DNA from: Melghirimyces profundicolus
GTDB lineage: Bacteria; Bacillota; Bacilli; Thermoactinomycetales; DSM-45169
Assembly (NCBI RefSeq): GCF_003054245.1
Contig: NZ_QBKR01000009.1
Span: 1 to 64,000, forward strand
DNA length: 64,000 nt
Reading direction: 5' to 3'
Within the stretch, counting starts at the first letter, position 1, and every line of letters begins with the position of its first letter. Under the pieces are notes generated by a model that made no database searches, was not told the origin of the DNA, and saw only the letters and a program-made list of their open reading frames with translations. Of the stretch, positions 388 to 8,060 are shown one piece after another. Position numbers and translations under genes: made by a program.

Positions 388-423
388 ATGAAGGAAAAAA
401 TTGATTCGCTGAAAGGTGATCAA

Positions 424-1173
424 ATGTCGATTAAAAAGCACCATGTGAAAAGCAAACTCGCCGTCGTTTACCAACTCATTCACACTCCTGGGGTTGCCGA
501 CTATATTCCTGAAACGGAACTGCTTAACAAAAGTTCGTTGCAACGAATGATACAGAAATATGAGAAGGTCTACCTCAAACCGGACAGAGGAAGAAAATCC
601 AAGGGAGTGATAAGAGTTGAAAGGTTAAAAGGCAACCGGTTTAAAATAAGGTACGGATCCCTCCAGAAATATGCAGATAAGAAGGATATATGGAAAAAAA
701 CAGATCGTTTGACAAAAGGAAAAAGATACATCGTTCAACAAGCCATTGAAAGTGTGACAAAGGATCGGCGGCACTTTGATCTTCGTTGCCATTTAGTGAG
801 AATTCAAGGTCAATGGAAGGTTGGGGGGATCTGTGGAAGGTTGGGGGAACCGGGAAGTATTGTGACCACTTATCATTCCGGGGGTACCCCGACTCCCCTG
901 AACACTCTCCTCACCCGACACTTGAATTATTCCGGCAGAAAGAAAGAGAATATGATCCGGCGATTGAAGGAATGTGCCATCCAAGCAGTCCACCATGTGA
1001 GCAAAATGTATCCGAATCTCAAAGAGTTCGCCGTGGACATGGGAATCGACCCCAAGAGGAGAATATGGATTTACGAGGTAAACATTGAACCGCTGATTCG
1101 GGCAAATTTTAAAAAGTTACCCGATAAAACGGTATATCGAAAAATTAAAAAGGTGAGAAAAATCGCCAGGTAA
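424..1173 (+). CDS. YheC/YheD-family ATP-grasp protein (paralogue 1)
   Basis: This 249-aa protein belongs to the YheC/YheD ATP-grasp family, known in Bacillus as spore-coat-associated proteins of unknown reaction. ATP-grasp enzymes normally join a carboxylate to an amine or thiol using ATP. Visible landmarks are VYLKPDRGRKSKG (nucleotide-binding lysine region), RYIVQQAIE, the FDLRCHLVR strand, and the C-terminal MGIDPKRRIWIYEVNIEP, which carries the D and E/N metal ligands of the fold. I chose ATG 424 because AAAGGTGAT lies just before it; an ATG at 388 has no comparable site. It is convergent with paralogue 2 and sits at the edge of the phosphonate operon. The substrate is unknown. Confidence 0.8.
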   Translation: MSIKKHHVKSKLAVVYQLIHTPGVADYIPETELLNKSSLQRMIQKYEKVYLKPDRGRKSKGVIRVERLKGNRFKIRYGSLQKYADKKDIWKKTDRLTKGKRYIVQQAIESVTKDRRHFDLRCHLVRIQGQWKVGGICGRLGEPGSIVTTYHSGGTPTPLNTLLTRHLNYSGRKKENMIRRLKECAIQAVHHVSKMYPNLKEFAVDMGIDPKRRIWIYEVNIEPLIRANFKKLPDKTVYRKIKKVRKIAR

Positions 1174-1402: not shown

Positions 1403-2146
1403 TCAACCCTTTTTATATCTCATAATTCGACGGTACATCGTTTGGTCTTTCAGTTTGCGGAAGTGGGATGTCATGGGGAGTCGATTCGCTTCGATGATCC
1501 AGATATGTCCGTTCGGATCCACCCCCATATCCATTCCGAACATGCGATGGTCAGGGTATCGGTCGGTCAATCTCTGGGCAGAGAGCAAAGCAACCCTTTT
1601 AATTTCGGACAGGATGCTTTTTTCGGAAAGATGTTTCAGAGAAGATTTTTGGATCGCGGATTCAACTGTCAGCAGGGTCCCTTTGCTCCTTTCATTGTTG
1701 GTGACAATGTACCCTTTTCCGGCCACTTTAGCCACTTTTCCCGTCACTTTCCATGAATCGGAGCTCTTTTTTCGTTGAACCATCACCCGTATATCAAACG
1801 GGCGGTTGCGTATTTCCGCAAGTTGAACCCGTTGCTGGACCATATACTTCCCGGACCCGATCAACTTTTTGATATACCGGTACATTCTGCTGAACCCCCG
1901 CTTCGTTTTCTTCTTTTTATCGATGTGGATTTCATAGCGTTTGTTTTCTAACCTTGATACCAGGATCACACCAGATCCTCGGCTCCCGATCTCAGGTTTC
2001 AGAATCACCTGTCCGTACTTTTTCATCATTTTTCGCAACGCTTTTGAGGTAAGAAGCTTTGTTTTCGGCAGATGGGGTGCCAACCGGTCATCCTCCGCCA
2101 TAAATGTGTATCTCAACCATTTGCTTAGTCGAAGGCTCCGTTTCAC
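1403..2146 (-). CDS. YheC/YheD-family ATP-grasp ligase, last gene of the phosphonate operon (paralogue 2)
   Basis: This 247-aa ATP-grasp protein starts with GTG at 2146, directly after the phnW stop codon, with AAGGGGG as ribosome site. It is therefore almost certainly translated with the phosphonate genes. Landmarks are VILKPEIGSRGSG, KYMVQQRVQLAEIRNRPFD, the IRVMVQ strand, and MFGMDMGVDPNGHIWIIEANRLP, in which D and E/N are the expected Mg-ATP ligands. Family knowledge says only that YheC/YheD proteins associate with spore coats. I infer from the operon that it may use 2-aminoethylphosphonate or a derivative as the amine acceptor in an ATP-dependent ligation. That chemistry is not shown by the sequence. 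Confidence 0.8.
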   Translation of the reverse strand: MKRSLRLSKWLRYTFMAEDDRLAPHLPKTKLLTSKALRKMMKKYGQVILKPEIGSRGSGVILVSRLENKRYEIHIDKKKKTKRGFSRMYRYIKKLIGSGKYMVQQRVQLAEIRNRPFDIRVMVQRKKSSDSWKVTGKVAKVAGKGYIVTNNERSKGTLLTVESAIQKSSLKHLSEKSILSEIKRVALLSAQRLTDRYPDHRMFGMDMGVDPNGHIWIIEANRLPMTSHFRKLKDQTMYRRIMRYKKG

Positions 2147-3271
2147 TCACTGTCCCCCTTTCGGAACATAACCGATGACTTTTAGGTAACTTTCCAAAAG
2201 GTTTAGAAATCGATCGATATCTTTGGGGGTGATATCGCCGATATTGGCGATTCTGAATGTTTTCGACTTCTCGAGTTTACCGGGATAAATCGTGAAGTTC
2301 CGGTCGTAAAAATAATCGTGCATTTCCGTGAAACTGTATCCGGCGCAATCCGGTTCAAGGATGGCTGTGATGAGTTTGGAATGATGTTGCTCCGGGACGA
2401 GACAGTCCAATCCAAGCCGGACAATCCCGTTTGTCAACGTTTCCCACGATTCAGCGTACCGTTGGTATCTCCCTTGGACTCCCTCTTGTTTCACCTCCAC
2501 AATCGCTTGTTGGAGGGCGTACAGAGTTTGAACGGGCGGGGTGAAACGCATTTGACGGGTTTCCAAGAAAAACTGATATTGAGCATGCAGATTCAGGTAG
2601 TAATTTCGCCCTTTCTTGTTCTTCAAGTCATTCAATTTGCCAAGGTCAGCGATCACGAAGGAAATCCCCGCCATCCCTTGAAGGTTTTTGTTGGAACTTG
2701 CAGCCAGAAAACTGATATTCATCGCCTTCATTTGGATCGGGATCGCCGCGAATGAACTCATGGCATCCACAATCAGATCCATCCGGTATTTCCTGCATAA
2801 TCGTCCGATCGACCCGATATCGTTTAACAGACCGGTGGTCGTCTCATGATGGACGACGGCGAGATGGGAGATCTTATGAGAGGAGGTTTGGATCCGTTTT
2901 TCCAAGGCGTGCAAGTCGATGGAGTCATCGGGAGGGCTGTTGAATTCGATGAAATTTAATCCATAGGCTTCCGCAATTTCGCACATCCGTTTACCGTACG
3001 CACCATTGTTGATAATGAGCAAGTAATCCTCATCCACCACGGAACTCAACATGGATTCGACCGCCGCCGTACCCGATCCGCCGAACAATACGGTGGCATA
3101 TTCTTGCGGATCGGCCACCAAACGGGTCAGTTCCGTGGACACGTTTTCCATCAGGCGACCAAACTCCGGTTCCCGCGGGCAGATATCGGGTACCACTTGC
3201 GAGTATTTAACGGTGTCTGTCGTGGTAGCGGGACCGGGAGTGAGCAGAATGTTTCTCTTGACCGTCCGCAT
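2147..3271 (-). CDS. phnW: 2-aminoethylphosphonate:pyruvate aminotransferase
   Basis: This 374-aa class V aminotransferase interconverts phosphonoacetaldehyde plus alanine and 2-aminoethylphosphonate plus pyruvate. The opening NILLTPGPATTT, the GGSGTAAVES segment, the aspartate in VDAMSSF and the PLP lysine in SSNKNLQG are typical of PhnW, and the length fits. PhnW can work in degradation or synthesis. Here it lies 15 bases after phosphonopyruvate decarboxylase and in one operon with PEP mutase, and no phosphonatase (phnX) is visible, so the biosynthetic direction is inferred. Its stop codon abuts the start of the ATP-grasp gene. Confidence 0.92.
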   Translation of the reverse strand: MRTVKRNILLTPGPATTTDTVKYSQVVPDICPREPEFGRLMENVSTELTRLVADPQEYATVLFGGSGTAAVESMLSSVVDEDYLLIINNGAYGKRMCEIAEAYGLNFIEFNSPPDDSIDLHALEKRIQTSSHKISHLAVVHHETTTGLLNDIGSIGRLCRKYRMDLIVDAMSSFAAIPIQMKAMNISFLAASSNKNLQGMAGISFVIADLGKLNDLKNKKGRNYYLNLHAQYQFFLETRQMRFTPPVQTLYALQQAIVEVKQEGVQGRYQRYAESWETLTNGIVRLGLDCLVPEQHHSKLITAILEPDCAGYSFTEMHDYFYDRNFTIYPGKLEKSKTFRIANIGDITPKDIDRFLNLLESYLKVIGYVPKGGQ

Positions 3272-3286
3272 ATGATTTTCCCTCCG

Positions 3287-4435
3287 TTAATCAAGGGAGT
3301 GATTGTTAATAAATGTCTTTAGCCGCTCTTTCACTTCATAGGGTTTGATTTTGGGGCGGCCCAGTTGTTTCCGGGATCCTTTGGAAATTTTCATATATAG
3401 AAAAGTCAATCCGCCGCTTTGCCTCCATTCGCGCAAGGCGGCTTGCAACTCTTTCAGGCTGTGGATGTAAATCGATTTTGTGTAACCACAGGAAGCGGCG
3501 ATTTCCACGAAATCGGTATGATGAGAGACCGTGCTTTGCCCTCCCGTCGAATCGTGGGCATGATTATCGAGCAGGATGTGGAGCATGTTTCGTGGGCTGT
3601 AATAACCGTTGGTGGCCAAACTCCCCATGCGCATGAGCAGAGAGCCATCCCCGTCGATCACAGTGATTTTCAGATCCTTCCTGGTCAGTGCCATGCCGAG
3701 TCCGAGAGAACTGGAACATCCCATGGAACCGACCATGTACAGATGGTTTGGGGCATCCTCGATTTCATATAATTCCCGGCCTGTTTTTCCGGTTGTGGCA
3801 ATCAGGACGGTGTTGCTCTTTTTCCATGCGCTGATGACGGGGAGTGCTTCATGCCGGCAGGGTATTTGATCCTTGAACCCTGCGTTTTTTTTCTTTTTGA
3901 TACGGTTTCGTTGAAGGGGAGGCGTTTGTTTTTTCAGGGGTTCATCGGCAAACGTCCCTTTCTTCACGACAAAAAAGAAAGGACGGTTGCCGGCAATCCA
4001 TTGATTGGCCTGGGACAGTTGTTGTCGGGCTTTTTTCAGATCGCAAGACAAAAACTGCCATTTCACTTGCATTAAATCCAGCATTTGCGTGGTGATTTGC
4101 CCCATCAGTTCATGCTGCGGTTCATCAGGAGTACCTGGTTCCCCGCGGAGGGTGACAAAACCGAGAACCGGAATCCGAAACGGATAGCTCAGAGAGACCA
4201 ACGGGGAAACCGCGTTGGTCAGCCCTGAATTTTGCATCAGGACCACGGATTTTTTCCCCGCCAGCCAGGCCCCGGATGCGATTGCGACGGCGTCGCCTTC
4301 GTTTGCCGCTGCGACATATTCGCATTCGTTGATGGCGTAGTTGATCAGATTTTTGAGAAAGGAGCACGGAACCCCGCTGTAAAACGAGAACCCCAATCTT
4401 TGCAGTTCATTCCCGAATGCTTTTGTATCCAGCAT
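3287..4435 (-). CDS. aepY: Phosphonopyruvate decarboxylase
   Basis: This 382-aa thiamine-diphosphate enzyme decarboxylates phosphonopyruvate to phosphonoacetaldehyde, the step that makes PEP mutase productive. Family signatures are the N-terminal FYSGVPCSFLKNLI, the AANEGDAVAIASG segment with the catalytic glutamate region, QNSGLTNAVSPL, and the C-terminal ThDP motif IDGDGSLLMRMGSLAT followed by LDNHAHDSTGGQ. Length is normal for a single-chain Ppd. It starts 6 bases after the PEP mutase stop codon and is followed by phnW after 15 bases, so the three enzymes form one transcription unit. The product enters PhnW directly. Confidence 0.92.
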   Translation of the reverse strand: MLDTKAFGNELQRLGFSFYSGVPCSFLKNLINYAINECEYVAAANEGDAVAIASGAWLAGKKSVVLMQNSGLTNAVSPLVSLSYPFRIPVLGFVTLRGEPGTPDEPQHELMGQITTQMLDLMQVKWQFLSCDLKKARQQLSQANQWIAGNRPFFFVVKKGTFADEPLKKQTPPLQRNRIKKKKNAGFKDQIPCRHEALPVISAWKKSNTVLIATTGKTGRELYEIEDAPNHLYMVGSMGCSSSLGLGMALTRKDLKITVIDGDGSLLMRMGSLATNGYYSPRNMLHILLDNHAHDSTGGQSTVSHHTDFVEIAASCGYTKSIYIHSLKELQAALREWRQSGGLTFLYMKISKGSRKQLGRPKIKPYEVKERLKTFINNHSLD

Positions 4436-4441
4436 CGACTG

Positions 4442-5329
4442 TCACTCCACTTTCTTTTTGGCCGGAAAGTATTTCTTTTCCGCGGCCATCAGCTCTTCCG
4501 CTCGTTGCAGGCGGAAGATTTCCTCGACGGTTGCCACGTTGCTCTCCACATTTATCAGGCTTTTCTCCCGATGGAGTTGTCTCGCTGTTTTTTGCATCGC
4601 ATCGATGGACGCTCTCATATTGTGGTTGGCCCAAATGATGAGGTTGATCCCCAATTCCTTAAACCGGGCCGTGGGAGTGGAATAATATTTGGTGGGCACA
4701 ATGACCACCGGGTGCCTTCCGTTCCATTCTTTCATAAATGCCTCGATTTCCTTGATGTCCGACCGTTTGCTGTGGATCAGGACAGCGTCCGCACCCGCTT
4801 GCCGATATGCTTCCGCCCTTCGCAGCGCTTCCTTCAAACCCCAGCCCGCAATAAAAGCCTCCACCCTCGTGACGACAATGAAGTCTTCATCCTGTTGCGT
4901 GTCTTTCATCGCTTTGATTTTGCCGCAAAACTCCTCTACATCGGCAAGGGGTTGGGCTTTACTGTTAATAAAGGAGTTGGTTTTTGGAAACAGCTTATCT
5001 TCTATGCAAACGCCCGCTATATTTCGCTGCTCCAGTTTTTGGACCAGCCGCCTTGCGTTATTGAAATTCCCGTATCCCGTATCACCATCCAGCAAGATCG
5101 GAATGGATGTGGCGTCACTCATAAACTCCAAAACATCCAATACTTGGGTCCAGGAAGCTTCGTTGTTATCCCGGACACCCAGGCTTGCGGAGATGGTGAA
5201 TCCGCTTGCCCAGATTCCTTTAAAACCGGCTTCCTCCACGATTTTTGCGGACATTCCGTTATGAGCTTCCATGATAAAATCCAGGTTCTTCGAGTAAATG
5301 GTCTCTTTTAATGTGGTTGTTTTTTTCAT
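4442..5329 (-). CDS. aepX: Phosphoenolpyruvate mutase
   Basis: This 295-aa isocitrate-lyase-superfamily enzyme rearranges PEP to phosphonopyruvate, creating the C-P bond. The diagnostic PepM motif appears as [11 protein letters not shown], and [13 protein letters not shown] carries the Mg-binding aspartates. I place the start at 5329 (MKKTTT) because AAAGGAGA precedes it by five bases; the frame stays open to 5365 without a ribosome site. It is the first gene of a four-gene operon: mutase, decarboxylase, aminotransferase, ATP-grasp. Some bacteria make 2-aminoethylphosphonate for lipids or polysaccharides, while others make phosphonate antibiotics. No antibiotic-type tailoring gene is seen here. 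Confidence 0.95.
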
Positions 5330-5701
5330 TGAATTCTCCTTTTCAGCAGAATCGTATTTAGTCATATAAAATATTTAGAGTAGAGATGAAATGAACCGGC
5401 TGGTATCTACTTGGATCTACCCAATTTACAAAACAAGACAGCGTTTATTGCCCTTGGGTTGATTGAATGGATCAGAACCCTCTGATGTGGGAAAGAACCG
5501 GCACGGGCCGTCCGTTGTTTCAATATTCGGAAACTGAGGATTGCAGTAAAAACACGCTTTCTTAAAGGAGTGCAGCAGATCCGCAGAGATGATGTCATCT
5601 GCGGATTATTTTCATGTACAGTATTTAAACAACCCGTTGTCAACGGATGTCCAGGCAATGAATAAGAGAGAAGCATAGGGTATACCAACGTCACAGGAAG
5701 G
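5330..5701. other. Divergent intergenic region of the phosphonate operon
   Basis: This 372-base gap separates the phosphonate operon (leftward) from ATP-grasp paralogue 3 (rightward). It holds an inverted repeat, ATCCGCAGA (5579-5587) against TCTGCGGAT (5598-5606), whose inner bases also pair. Near 5674-5682 lies CATAGGGTA, an exact match to the sigmaK -10 pattern CATANNNTA, although the matching -35 (GC in place of AC at 17 bases) is poor. No coding frame is convincing. Confidence 0.45.
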
Positions 5702-7072
5702 ATGGGATCTCAGTCTATGGGGAAATATTCGGTGTACCCGATAAGAGTTGGATTATTGAAGGGCCTCCGGAGACAAACCGTTTCCGTGTCTTACAAAATA
5801 TTCCTACGGTTGAATTCACCCTCAAAGATAAGGCTGAAAGTGGGTCAGTGGGAAACAGCCGTTGATCTGATTCAGCACTCATCGGACGAAAGAATTCTTT
5901 TGTCCGATGATCTTCTGTCAAAAAGCGGTTTGTTCGACGGGACGGAATGTCACGTAAAGGCAGGGGGTAAATACCTGCAATTGGGGCCCTTGATTGGTGT
6001 GTTCACCCGACGGCACTACATCCGAAGGCTGAATCGACAGAACGCCACCTTTCGTACCTCGGAGATGTTGAAGGCGAGCTCTGAAGCGGGGACAGTCATT
6101 TACCATTTCAGTGTTCGGGACCTGAAGCTGAAGGATAAAACTGTGAAGGGGACCGTTTTCAACCCATTAACCCAAAAATGGAAAAAAAGAATATTCCCCT
6201 TACCGGATGTCCTTTATGACCGATCCAGTGGGAGGGCTTACCGGAAATATAAGCGACATGTCTGGGCCAGAAAGAAAATGGATGAGATGAACATTGCCAA
6301 GATGAATGCTGTTCATTATTTTGATAAATGGGAGTTATTCCGCCAATTGGGTCAATACAGAAATGTGAGCAAATATCTTCCGGAAACCCGGGTATACCAA
6401 CCTTCCAGGCTGAAGAACATGCTGCTGAGAAATCCCGTGATTTACTTGAAAGCAACGATAGGCGGCATGGGGACCCGGATTATGCGCATAGAGAAAGAAG
6501 GCGGTGGTTATCGATACAGTGTATACAGAAGAAAACTGGAGAGCAATCGTCTATCCTCCGTTCAGAGAGTGAACCGAAGAGTAAACAGTTTCTTCGGTCC
6601 TGATCGAATTATTATGCAGCAGGGCATCCAATTGGTAAAAGCAAATAATGGAAACGTGGATATGCGCGCGACGGTACAAAGGAACGGAAAAGGGGAATTG
6701 GAGATCAACTCCATAGCGGTGCGAATGGGAAAAGAAGGATCTCCGATCACCAGTTCACGGACGGGGTCCAACATTGTACGTTTGGATGAGTTTATGAAAG
6801 CATCCGGATATTCGAATGAATTGAAAGAGAGGATCCATAAATTTCTGATCAGGGTCTATCGCAGGATTGAAGATGTATACGGACCGTTTGGAGAAATGGG
6901 AATCGATTTTGGTTTGGATGTATCGGGGAACATCCGCTTCATTGAATCCAATTCCAAACCAGCCAAAGATTCGCTTTATAAAGCCTTTGACAGGAAAACC
7001 ATCGACCTCGCATTCCGAAATCCGATGGAATATGCCAAGTACCTTTCGGGTTTCCGTTCCGAACTGCCGTAG
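5702..7072 (+). CDS. YheC/YheD-family ATP-grasp protein, long form (paralogue 3)
   Basis: At 456 aa this is the only long YheC/YheD protein here. An N-terminal domain of about 190 residues precedes the ATP-grasp part, as in full-length Bacillus YheC/YheD. Landmarks are VIYLKATIGGMGTRI (about residue 245), IIMQQGIQLVKANNGNVDMR, and MGIDFGLDVSGNIRFIESNSKP with the metal-binding D and E/N. The start is uncertain: ATG 5702 sits too close to AGGAAGG, ATG 5717 is 14 bases away, and GTG 5732 has GGGGAAA in front. It is divergent from the phosphonate operon and probably acts at the spore coat. Confidence 0.8.
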   Translation: MGSQSMGKYSVYPIRVGLLKGLRRQTVSVSYKIFLRLNSPSKIRLKVGQWETAVDLIQHSSDERILLSDDLLSKSGLFDGTECHVKAGGKYLQLGPLIGVFTRRHYIRRLNRQNATFRTSEMLKASSEAGTVIYHFSVRDLKLKDKTVKGTVFNPLTQKWKKRIFPLPDVLYDRSSGRAYRKYKRHVWARKKMDEMNIAKMNAVHYFDKWELFRQLGQYRNVSKYLPETRVYQPSRLKNMLLRNPVIYLKATIGGMGTRIMRIEKEGGGYRYSVYRRKLESNRLSSVQRVNRRVNSFFGPDRIIMQQGIQLVKANNGNVDMRATVQRNGKGELEINSIAVRMGKEGSPITSSRTGSNIVRLDEFMKASGYSNELKERIHKFLIRVYRRIEDVYGPFGEMGIDFGLDVSGNIRFIESNSKPAKDSLYKAFDRKTIDLAFRNPMEYAKYLSGFRSELP

Positions 7073-7195: not shown

Positions 7196-7948
7196 TTAAC
7201 CGTATTTTTTTTTGATATAGCGGTGGGTTTTAAGTGCCCGTCTATACATTTTTCGCTTGCCTAATTCCCTGAACATTTTTCGGAACATCGGGGAGGAATT
7301 CATCTCGATAAACCAGATATGACCTTGCTGATCCACCGCCATATCCAACCCGATGATCCGTAGATTAAAGTGGGTACCGAAGATTTCGGATATTTTGTGA
7401 CACAGATCCGTTAACTCCTTCAGAGCCTCAGGCATCTTTATGGAAGGGTGGGAGTTCAATGCCTTCTCCAACGGAAAAGGCTTGGCTCCCCGGATATGAT
7501 TTGTAACGATCCGGTCCTTTCTCCCCACCCGGGCCAACCAACCTGAAATTTGCCATTCATCTTCCGGTTTGTGCATCAGAATACGGATATCATAAGGGTT
7601 TCCATTCAGAGTAGCCAGGTTCAGTCCTTGTTGGACAATATATTTGCGGGGTTGATCCATCCTTTGAACCAATGTTTTATAAAGCATGGAATGCGGTACT
7701 TGTTCGATTTGATCATTGCTGCTTGATTGAATCATGCACGTGCCGTCTTTTGCCGAGACCCGGTAAATCCCGTTTCCCCGGTGGTTGGAATTGGGTTTTA
7801 AATAAAGTGTTACGTGATGATCGATCATTTGTTGCAATGTTTTTTTTGAAAACCAGACGGTTTCGGGAACATGAGGTTCCAGATCAGGGTTTTCGACGAG
7901 GAGATCATGATATTTCATCTTATCGGAAACATATCGTTGAACCGCCAA
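7196..7948 (-). CDS. YheC/YheD-family ATP-grasp protein (paralogue 4)
   Basis: This 250-aa protein has the short YheC/YheD layout. LYLKPNSNHRGNG is the nucleotide-binding segment, KYIVQQGLNLATLNGNPYD and IRILMHK form the central sheet, and IIGLDMAVDQQGHIWFIEMN holds the metal ligands. I prefer the TTG start at 7948 because GGAGG lies seven bases upstream; in-frame ATGs at 7963 and 8008 lack such a site. A sigmaK-like promoter (8061-8088) lies upstream, which would suit mother-cell expression late in sporulation. It is convergent with paralogue 3. The substrate is unknown. Confidence 0.78.
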   Translation of the reverse strand: MAVQRYVSDKMKYHDLLVENPDLEPHVPETVWFSKKTLQQMIDHHVTLYLKPNSNHRGNGIYRVSAKDGTCMIQSSSNDQIEQVPHSMLYKTLVQRMDQPRKYIVQQGLNLATLNGNPYDIRILMHKPEDEWQISGWLARVGRKDRIVTNHIRGAKPFPLEKALNSHPSIKMPEALKELTDLCHKISEIFGTHFNLRIIGLDMAVDQQGHIWFIEMNSSPMFRKMFRELGKRKMYRRALKTHRYIKKKYG

Positions 7949-8060
7949 ACAAAAAACCTCCATTCTTATAAAATATAAAGTATGGCACAGAGGAGGGGAT
8001 ATCTCCAAAAAGGGATGAAGGGCAAAAGCTGAATTCTCTCCTTTCTTGCTTTATATGATT

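Follow-up and report, generated by a model that had tools for sequence, protein, structure and literature searches.

Why does an operon predicted to make 2-aminoethylphosphonate (AEP) end in an ATP-grasp gene of the YheCD family (PF14398)? The question is raised by four genes that lie head to tail on the minus strand, in the order pepM, ppd, AEP aminotransferase and YheCD ATP-grasp, within a 64,000-nucleotide stretch of the Melghirimyces profundicolus genome (contig NZ_QBKR01000009.1, positions 1 to 64,000; hereafter the window, meaning the whole stretch). We find that the last gene belongs to a ligase clade that accompanies AEP genes in several families of Bacilli, that sister ligases are paired with a beta-alanine gene instead, and that the ligase stands where the usual route has a nucleotidyltransferase; from these observations we argue that the enzyme is probably an AEP-amine:carboxylate (amide) ligase, with the amine of AEP as the nucleophile.

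The operon and its conserved last gene

The first three genes are called by NCBIfam equivalog models, all over cut-off. The operon begins with pepM, encoding phosphoenolpyruvate (PEP) phosphomutase (4442..5329, minus strand; TIGR02320, E=4.7e-118, 393 bits, cut-off 320), whose translation carries the EDKx5NS motif; its start at 5329 is preceded by AAGGAG, and the longest open reading frame offers an alternative start at 5365. It is followed by ppd, encoding phosphonopyruvate decarboxylase, a thiamine pyrophosphate enzyme (3287..4435, minus strand; TIGR03297, E=1.2e-126, 423 bits, cut-off 312), and by a phnW/aepZ-type AEP aminotransferase gene (2147..3271, minus strand; TIGR03301, E=1.3e-113, 380 bits, cut-off 361). 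The last gene, with a GTG start, encodes the AEP-linked YheCD ATP-grasp ligase of 247 residues (1403..2146, minus strand), a member of the AEP-linked clade described below, which matches PF14398 with E=1.5e-57 and 195 bits (Pfam gathering score 26.8). At the junction, read from the sequence (2144..2149, minus strand), AAAGGGGGACAGTGA runs directly into GTGAAACGG, that is, the ligase GTG abuts the aminotransferase TGA with a gap of 0 bp, AAAGGGGG lies upstream of this TGA-GTG junction, and the ligase has a plausible ribosome-binding site. The operon described in a first-pass annotation of this DNA, with the ligase GTG touching the aminotransferase stop, is thus borne out by the sequence and the family models.

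By established enzymology, PepM, Ppd and the aminotransferase would together make AEP. PhnX (TIGR01422, phosphonoacetaldehyde hydrolase) was over cut-off in none of the 42 genomes of the window's order (carbon-phosphorus lyase was not searched); we therefore regard the operon as biosynthetic, and a role in AEP breakdown was rejected.

The M. profundicolus genome contains 18 PF14398 genes, four of them within the window's first 8 kb, so a single YheCD nearby could be luck and its conservation needed testing. PEP mutase is over cut-off in 11 of the 42 genomes of the order and in 34 of 399 genomes of the class. The full pepM-ppd-aminotransferase-YheCD arrangement is present in 10 of the 11 pepM-positive order genomes as well as in other Bacilli families, and was found in Thermoactinomycetaceae, Paenibacillaceae, Alicyclobacillaceae, Bacillaceae and Caryophanaceae. 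Over 47 AEP loci, the gap between aminotransferase and ligase has a median of 0 bp and is at most 30 bp in 41. In a tree of 60 YheCD proteins, the 17 ligases downstream of an aminotransferase form one clade (support 99/86), and the next three rows, sister to it, are likewise AEP-adjacent. A profile of this clade scores at least 356 bits in exactly 10 order genomes, always at the operon and always with pepM over cut-off; the clade ligase is thus present in 10 of 11 pepM-positive genomes and in 0 of the 31 others (best 247 bits; Fisher p=7e-9). One pepM genome of the order has an additional copy away from the operon (303 bits), and in the class sample the 20 top-matching genomes (at least 324 bits) are all pepM-positive. 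Conservation of the junction with a single ligase clade had been set beforehand as the main test, and the clade support, the gap lengths and the genome counts all came out strongly in its favour; chance placement among the 18 paralogues is ruled out by conservation across families.

Scanned over 84,980 species genomes, the clade profile returned 80 named loci. The ligase lies beside AEP genes in 36 of these (counted from the map), distributed over Marinithermofilum, Kroppenstedtia, Shimazuella, Thermoflavimicrobium, Thermoactinomyces, Seinonella, Brevibacillus, Paenibacillus, Gordonibacillus, Chengkuizengella, Alicyclobacillus, Halalkalibacter and Sporosarcina. Two Paenibacillus loci keep an intact aminotransferase and ligase with a decayed pepM: a C-terminal remnant at L168:6610-6684 and an in-frame pepM-ppd remnant fusion at L174:6745-7131. 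Because pepM remnants are present, these ppd-aminotransferase-ligase loci without intact pepM are decayed operons.

Partner exchange, fusion and the ligase fold

In one genome (G343, locus L075), the aminotransferase and the ligase form a single protein of 623 residues, with Aminotran_5 at 34-331 and ATPgrasp_YheCD at 383-618. A different partner appears in the sister clade: in pepM-less Paenibacillus genomes, the ligases lie directly downstream of PanD, aspartate 1-decarboxylase (five tested with Pfam, E 1e-42 to 1e-44). PanD (PF02261) adjoins the ligase in 16 of the 80 named loci; with the 36 AEP-adjacent loci, 52 of these 80 nearest homologues therefore lie beside AEP or beta-alanine genes. 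The M. profundicolus genome itself has two PanD-YheCD pairs. Across the order, PanD is present in 41 of 42 genomes, with an extra copy at 15 further loci; YheCD adjoins 13 of the 15 extra loci vs. 0 of 30 canonical ones (within 1.5 kb; p=1e-9), and several of the extra pairs overlap by 4 bp. The ligase-linked copies are like the canonical PanD of pantothenate synthesis in making beta-alanine, but are extra to the canonical PanD of those genomes. Beta-alanine is the carboxylate isostere of AEP, with a carboxylate where AEP has a phosphonate. As the two differ only in the acid group, the simplest reading is that the ligases use the amine that they share. The same holds for a second YheCD clade, which lies before pepM in many Paenibacillus genomes and in some Thermoactinomycetaceae and is sister to YheCDs that precede PanD: it splits into AEP-linked and PanD-linked branches, and both ligases of the pair thus show the same exchange.

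Two side observations concern these modules. PanD beside YheCD is split or carries an in-frame stop at L285 (G014) and at G007:C1:205603-205942, both in genomes that also have an AEP operon, which suggests loss of the beta-alanine module. Paenibacillus terrigena (L184:8161-9732) has two YheCDs, one of the upstream and one of the downstream type, side by side and away from pepM, as though kept as a pair.

The AlphaFold2 model of the window ligase has a predicted local distance difference test score (pLDDT) of 95.5. Its structure matches (VIA-align Z 15-17) include TTLL6 (16.9), RimK (16.5), ArgX (16.4) and LysX/ArgX (16.4), with tubulin tyrosine ligase (TTL) also among the best; its sequence-profile matches are TTLL6, TTL and glutathione synthetase. 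Identity to TTL/TTLL6, RimK and LysX/ArgX is ~21% or less, and we know of no phosphonate substrate for any of them. In ligases of the TTL, RimK, LysX and ArgX type, the acceptor carboxylate is phosphorylated and an amine then attacks, joining the amine of an amino acid to a carboxylate of a protein or peptide. The AEP- and PanD-linked ligases have K9, R125, K140, D206, E219 and N221 in common, and the ATP-grasp metal ligands among these (D206, E219 and N221) are present in 97% or more of these ligases. The chief difference is at position 228: 44 of 46 AEP-linked ligases have His there, and 19 of 20 PanD-linked ligases have Leu. In D-Ala:D-Ala ligase, the loop that would correspond to this region holds the acid group of the amino acid being added.

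Given the observed gene content, conservation, fusion, partner exchange and predicted fold, we consider it fairly likely as a whole that YheCD links AEP to an acceptor carboxylate through an amide, and that the PanD-paired sisters do likewise with beta-alanine. PepM, Ppd and the aminotransferase would supply AEP; YheCD would use ATP to activate the acceptor carboxylate as an acyl phosphate, as the enzymology of such ligases predicts; and the AEP amine would attack this intermediate to give the amide acceptor-CO-NH-CH2-CH2-PO3. Lacking a carboxylate, AEP would leave the acceptor capped. The sister enzymes would perform the same reaction with beta-alanine, a carboxylate taking the place of the phosphonate. 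The second YheCD, encoded immediately before pepM in many relatives, may serve the same pathway and might, for instance, prepare the acceptor; which of the two ligases acts first is conjectural.

The first-pass annotation had proposed that the ligase may join AEP through its amine to a carboxylate on a spore-coat, wall or peptide acceptor. Use of the amine has gained support from the fusion, the PanD exchange and the resemblance to amino-acid:protein ligases, whereas the acceptor stays conjectural. That YheC/YheD proteins have no known reaction, and that no phosphonate system uses one, as was also claimed, is uncontradicted in the literature that we searched, which excluded most subscription papers. 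The components are each of a known kind; their combination, with interchangeable AEP and beta-alanine modules, was not found in that literature. The proposal thereby offers a specific, testable reaction for a large ATP-grasp family that has none there, with its many copies in M. profundicolus alone, and it names a non-nucleotidyl route of AEP use in bacteria.

Other fates of AEP

The published majority route for AEP is nucleotidyl activation (Rice et al. 2019, PMC6697681): in the Pnt pathway, PntC makes cytidine monophosphate-AEP (CMP-AEP), with which glycans of the cell surface are decorated. The same paper makes no mention of ATP-grasp or YheC. Our operon resembles the Pnt pathway in its PepM-Ppd-aminotransferase route, apparently for tailoring, and in that the enzyme that follows is linked, or even fused, to the aminotransferase; that enzyme, however, is an ATP-grasp ligase in place of the Pnt cytidylyltransferase, and the predicted product is an amide through the AEP nitrogen. 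Among 34 Bacillota pepM loci, the clade ligase occurs in 22 and a PntC-like nucleotidyltransferase in 10, with both in one (p=4e-5): the YheCD ligase takes the place that a nucleotidyltransferase has in the usual CMP-AEP route, and the two nearly exclude each other. A CMP-AEP route in ligase clusters was rejected as a rule, the nucleotidyltransferase being present in only 1 of the 22 ligase loci. AEP could instead be activated by an enzyme encoded elsewhere and decorate glycans as in Pnt pathways, with YheCD merely co-expressed. We regard this as improbable, because a PntC-like gene is found in 0 of 35 named pepM loci and nowhere near the window operon (a distant PntC elsewhere in the genome was not searched), and because the fusion and the PanD exchange argue for direct handling of AEP by the ligase.

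A phosphonopeptide would make other use of the same chemistry: acyl-AEP or peptidyl-AEP, small and secreted or stored, with no surface modification, the two YheCDs acting like PnaC and PnaB, one to make the peptide and the other to join the phosphonate. Phosphonoalamides are indeed built from phosphonoalanine by two ATP-grasp ligases (PMC11867202), so that PnaB/PnaC synthesis also joins a PepM-derived phosphonate to other molecules with two such ligases per pathway, and in many Paenibacillus loci a YheCD gene precedes pepM and another follows the aminotransferase. PnaB and PnaC, however, use phosphonoalanine, which has a carboxylate, and yield small antimicrobial peptides, whereas the operon is predicted to make AEP, which has none. 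Moreover, the PanD form would yield beta-alanyl peptides, which are unlikely to be antibiotics; YheCD families are expanded in spore formers, and sporulation genes lie next to some of the loci; and no recurrent transporter, resistance or regulator gene was noticed beside the operon in the mapped loci, although no systematic test was made. We judge a phosphonopeptide unlikely. ATP-grasp enzymes with other reactions also exist, e.g. an RNA ligase (PMC11071452), so YheCD might, without any amide ligation, act at the phosphonate oxygen or be a kinase or an adenylyltransferase. This seems highly improbable: in sequence and in fold, the ligase most resembles amino-acid:protein or peptide ligases, and beta-alanine and AEP share amine and spacing but differ in the acid group, which places a shared reaction most simply at the amine.

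Apart from the operon discussed here, a second and apparently independent AEP-YheCD arrangement occurs in three Bacilli families (L072:4601-13015, L080:4919-13961 and L084:5048-13017). These clusters are of the nucleotidyltransferase form, with a different ligase upstream of pepM and ppd; they encode a Mur ligase-like protein, PepM, Ppd and a nucleotidyltransferase-aminotransferase fusion, with a NUDIX protein in L072 and L080. In L072 and L084, on both of which Pfam was run, a COOH-NH2 ligase (PF14395) is fused to YheCD in a protein of ~900 residues, followed by the Mur ligase. As the YheCD-fused ligase of these loci is a different one, AEP and YheCD seem to have become linked on at least two occasions. 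In Halalkalibacter alkaliphilus (L186:6901-9717), genes for a PntC-like nucleotidyltransferase, a NUDIX protein, a PhyH-type 2-oxoglutarate dioxygenase and an AEP-clade YheCD follow one another, with pepM elsewhere in the genome; this row of genes suggests a hydroxylated AEP variant. A phage-like IMG/VR contig with a prohead-protease-like gene (L110:4092-8601) carries pepM, ppd, a methyltransferase gene, a PntC-like nucleotidyltransferase gene and an AEP aminotransferase gene, with no YheCD match in the locus map.

A putative spore acceptor and the neighbouring paralogues

To our knowledge, Bacillus subtilis yheC and yheD do not lie beside phosphonate or beta-alanine genes, and no reaction is known for YheC/YheD. 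Their products are of the same Pfam family (PF14398) as the window ligase, and they are mother-cell sporulation genes, controlled by sigma-E and SpoIIID (PMC517825). Of 41 dereplicated AEP operons, 10 have a sigma-K-like -10 box, CATANNNTA, upstream, compared with 7% of controls (p=7.5e-4), and the Brevibacillus operon has a clear sigma-K-like AC-N16-CATAAGATA; the sigma-E, sigma-G and sigma-A consensus sequences are not enriched in the same upstream regions. In two loci, the ligase has a SpoVIF family gene as its neighbour, a third locus has a SpoVIF homologue, and a gerA operon lies downstream of the ligase in one Brevibacillus locus. These findings suggest, rather than show, a sporulation role of the operon. 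Tentatively, we place the acceptor on the spore, with a surface protein or peptide as our best guess; most likely it would be a protein or peptide carboxylate made in sporulation for the spore surface. With somewhat more reserve, we can envisage that spore-forming Bacillota modify spore proteins or peptides with amide-linked AEP or beta-alanine, interchangeable PepM-Ppd-aminotransferase or PanD modules feeding paired YheCD ligases. If this is true, it would amount to post-translational modification with a phosphonate and would give the YheCD family its first assigned reaction; with the acceptor on the spore, phosphonate or beta-alanine would modify spores in agricultural and industrial genera (Paenibacillus, Brevibacillus and Alicyclobacillus).

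Several points weigh against amide ligation of AEP to a spore acceptor. Fold similarity does not prove the substrate of the ligase, and ligation is a prediction. The sigma-K-like box is absent upstream of the window operon and of most AEP operons. No acceptor gene emerged, as none of the short open reading frames (22-109 residues) near 40 loci is widely conserved; the search yielded only the SpoVIF-like protein, shared by three related loci, and one small group of shadow frames in the pepM/ppd region. Some clade members lie away from AEP genes, most in genomes with pepM elsewhere, Salipaludibacillus without pepM; and at three loci (L064, L082 and L086) the AEP genes are accompanied by no clade ligase and no nucleotidyltransferase. 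The clade profile was trained on AEP-linked sequences and its scores lean towards them; this training alone does not keep high scores out of pepM-negative genomes.

The remaining three PF14398 genes at this end of the window flank the operon. Divergent from pepM lies a gene for a YheCD protein of 456 residues (5702..7072, plus strand; PF14398, E=3.4e-67), whose relatives recur near AEP operons at L033, L066, L074, L085 and L162. Next to it, a second YheCD ligase gene (7196..8008, minus strand; PF14398, E=1.3e-54; tree position as L006_2398) falls in the PanD-type branch of the second YheCD clade; its own branch precedes PanD in relatives, and members of the sister branch lie before pepM in Paenibacillus, Thermoflavimicrobium and Thermoactinomyces. 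On the other side, convergent with the operon, is a further paralogue (388..1173, plus strand; PF14398, E=3.1e-53), whose relatives at L033, L066 and L085 are close to AEP loci. Elsewhere in the M. profundicolus genome, away from the AEP operon, four YheCD genes stand in tandem (G000:C4:103201-107838, loci L001-L004). In two genera, a radical S-adenosylmethionine protein of ~370-390 residues is encoded among the YheCD genes near AEP loci (L175:6564-7727 and L066:11804-12907).

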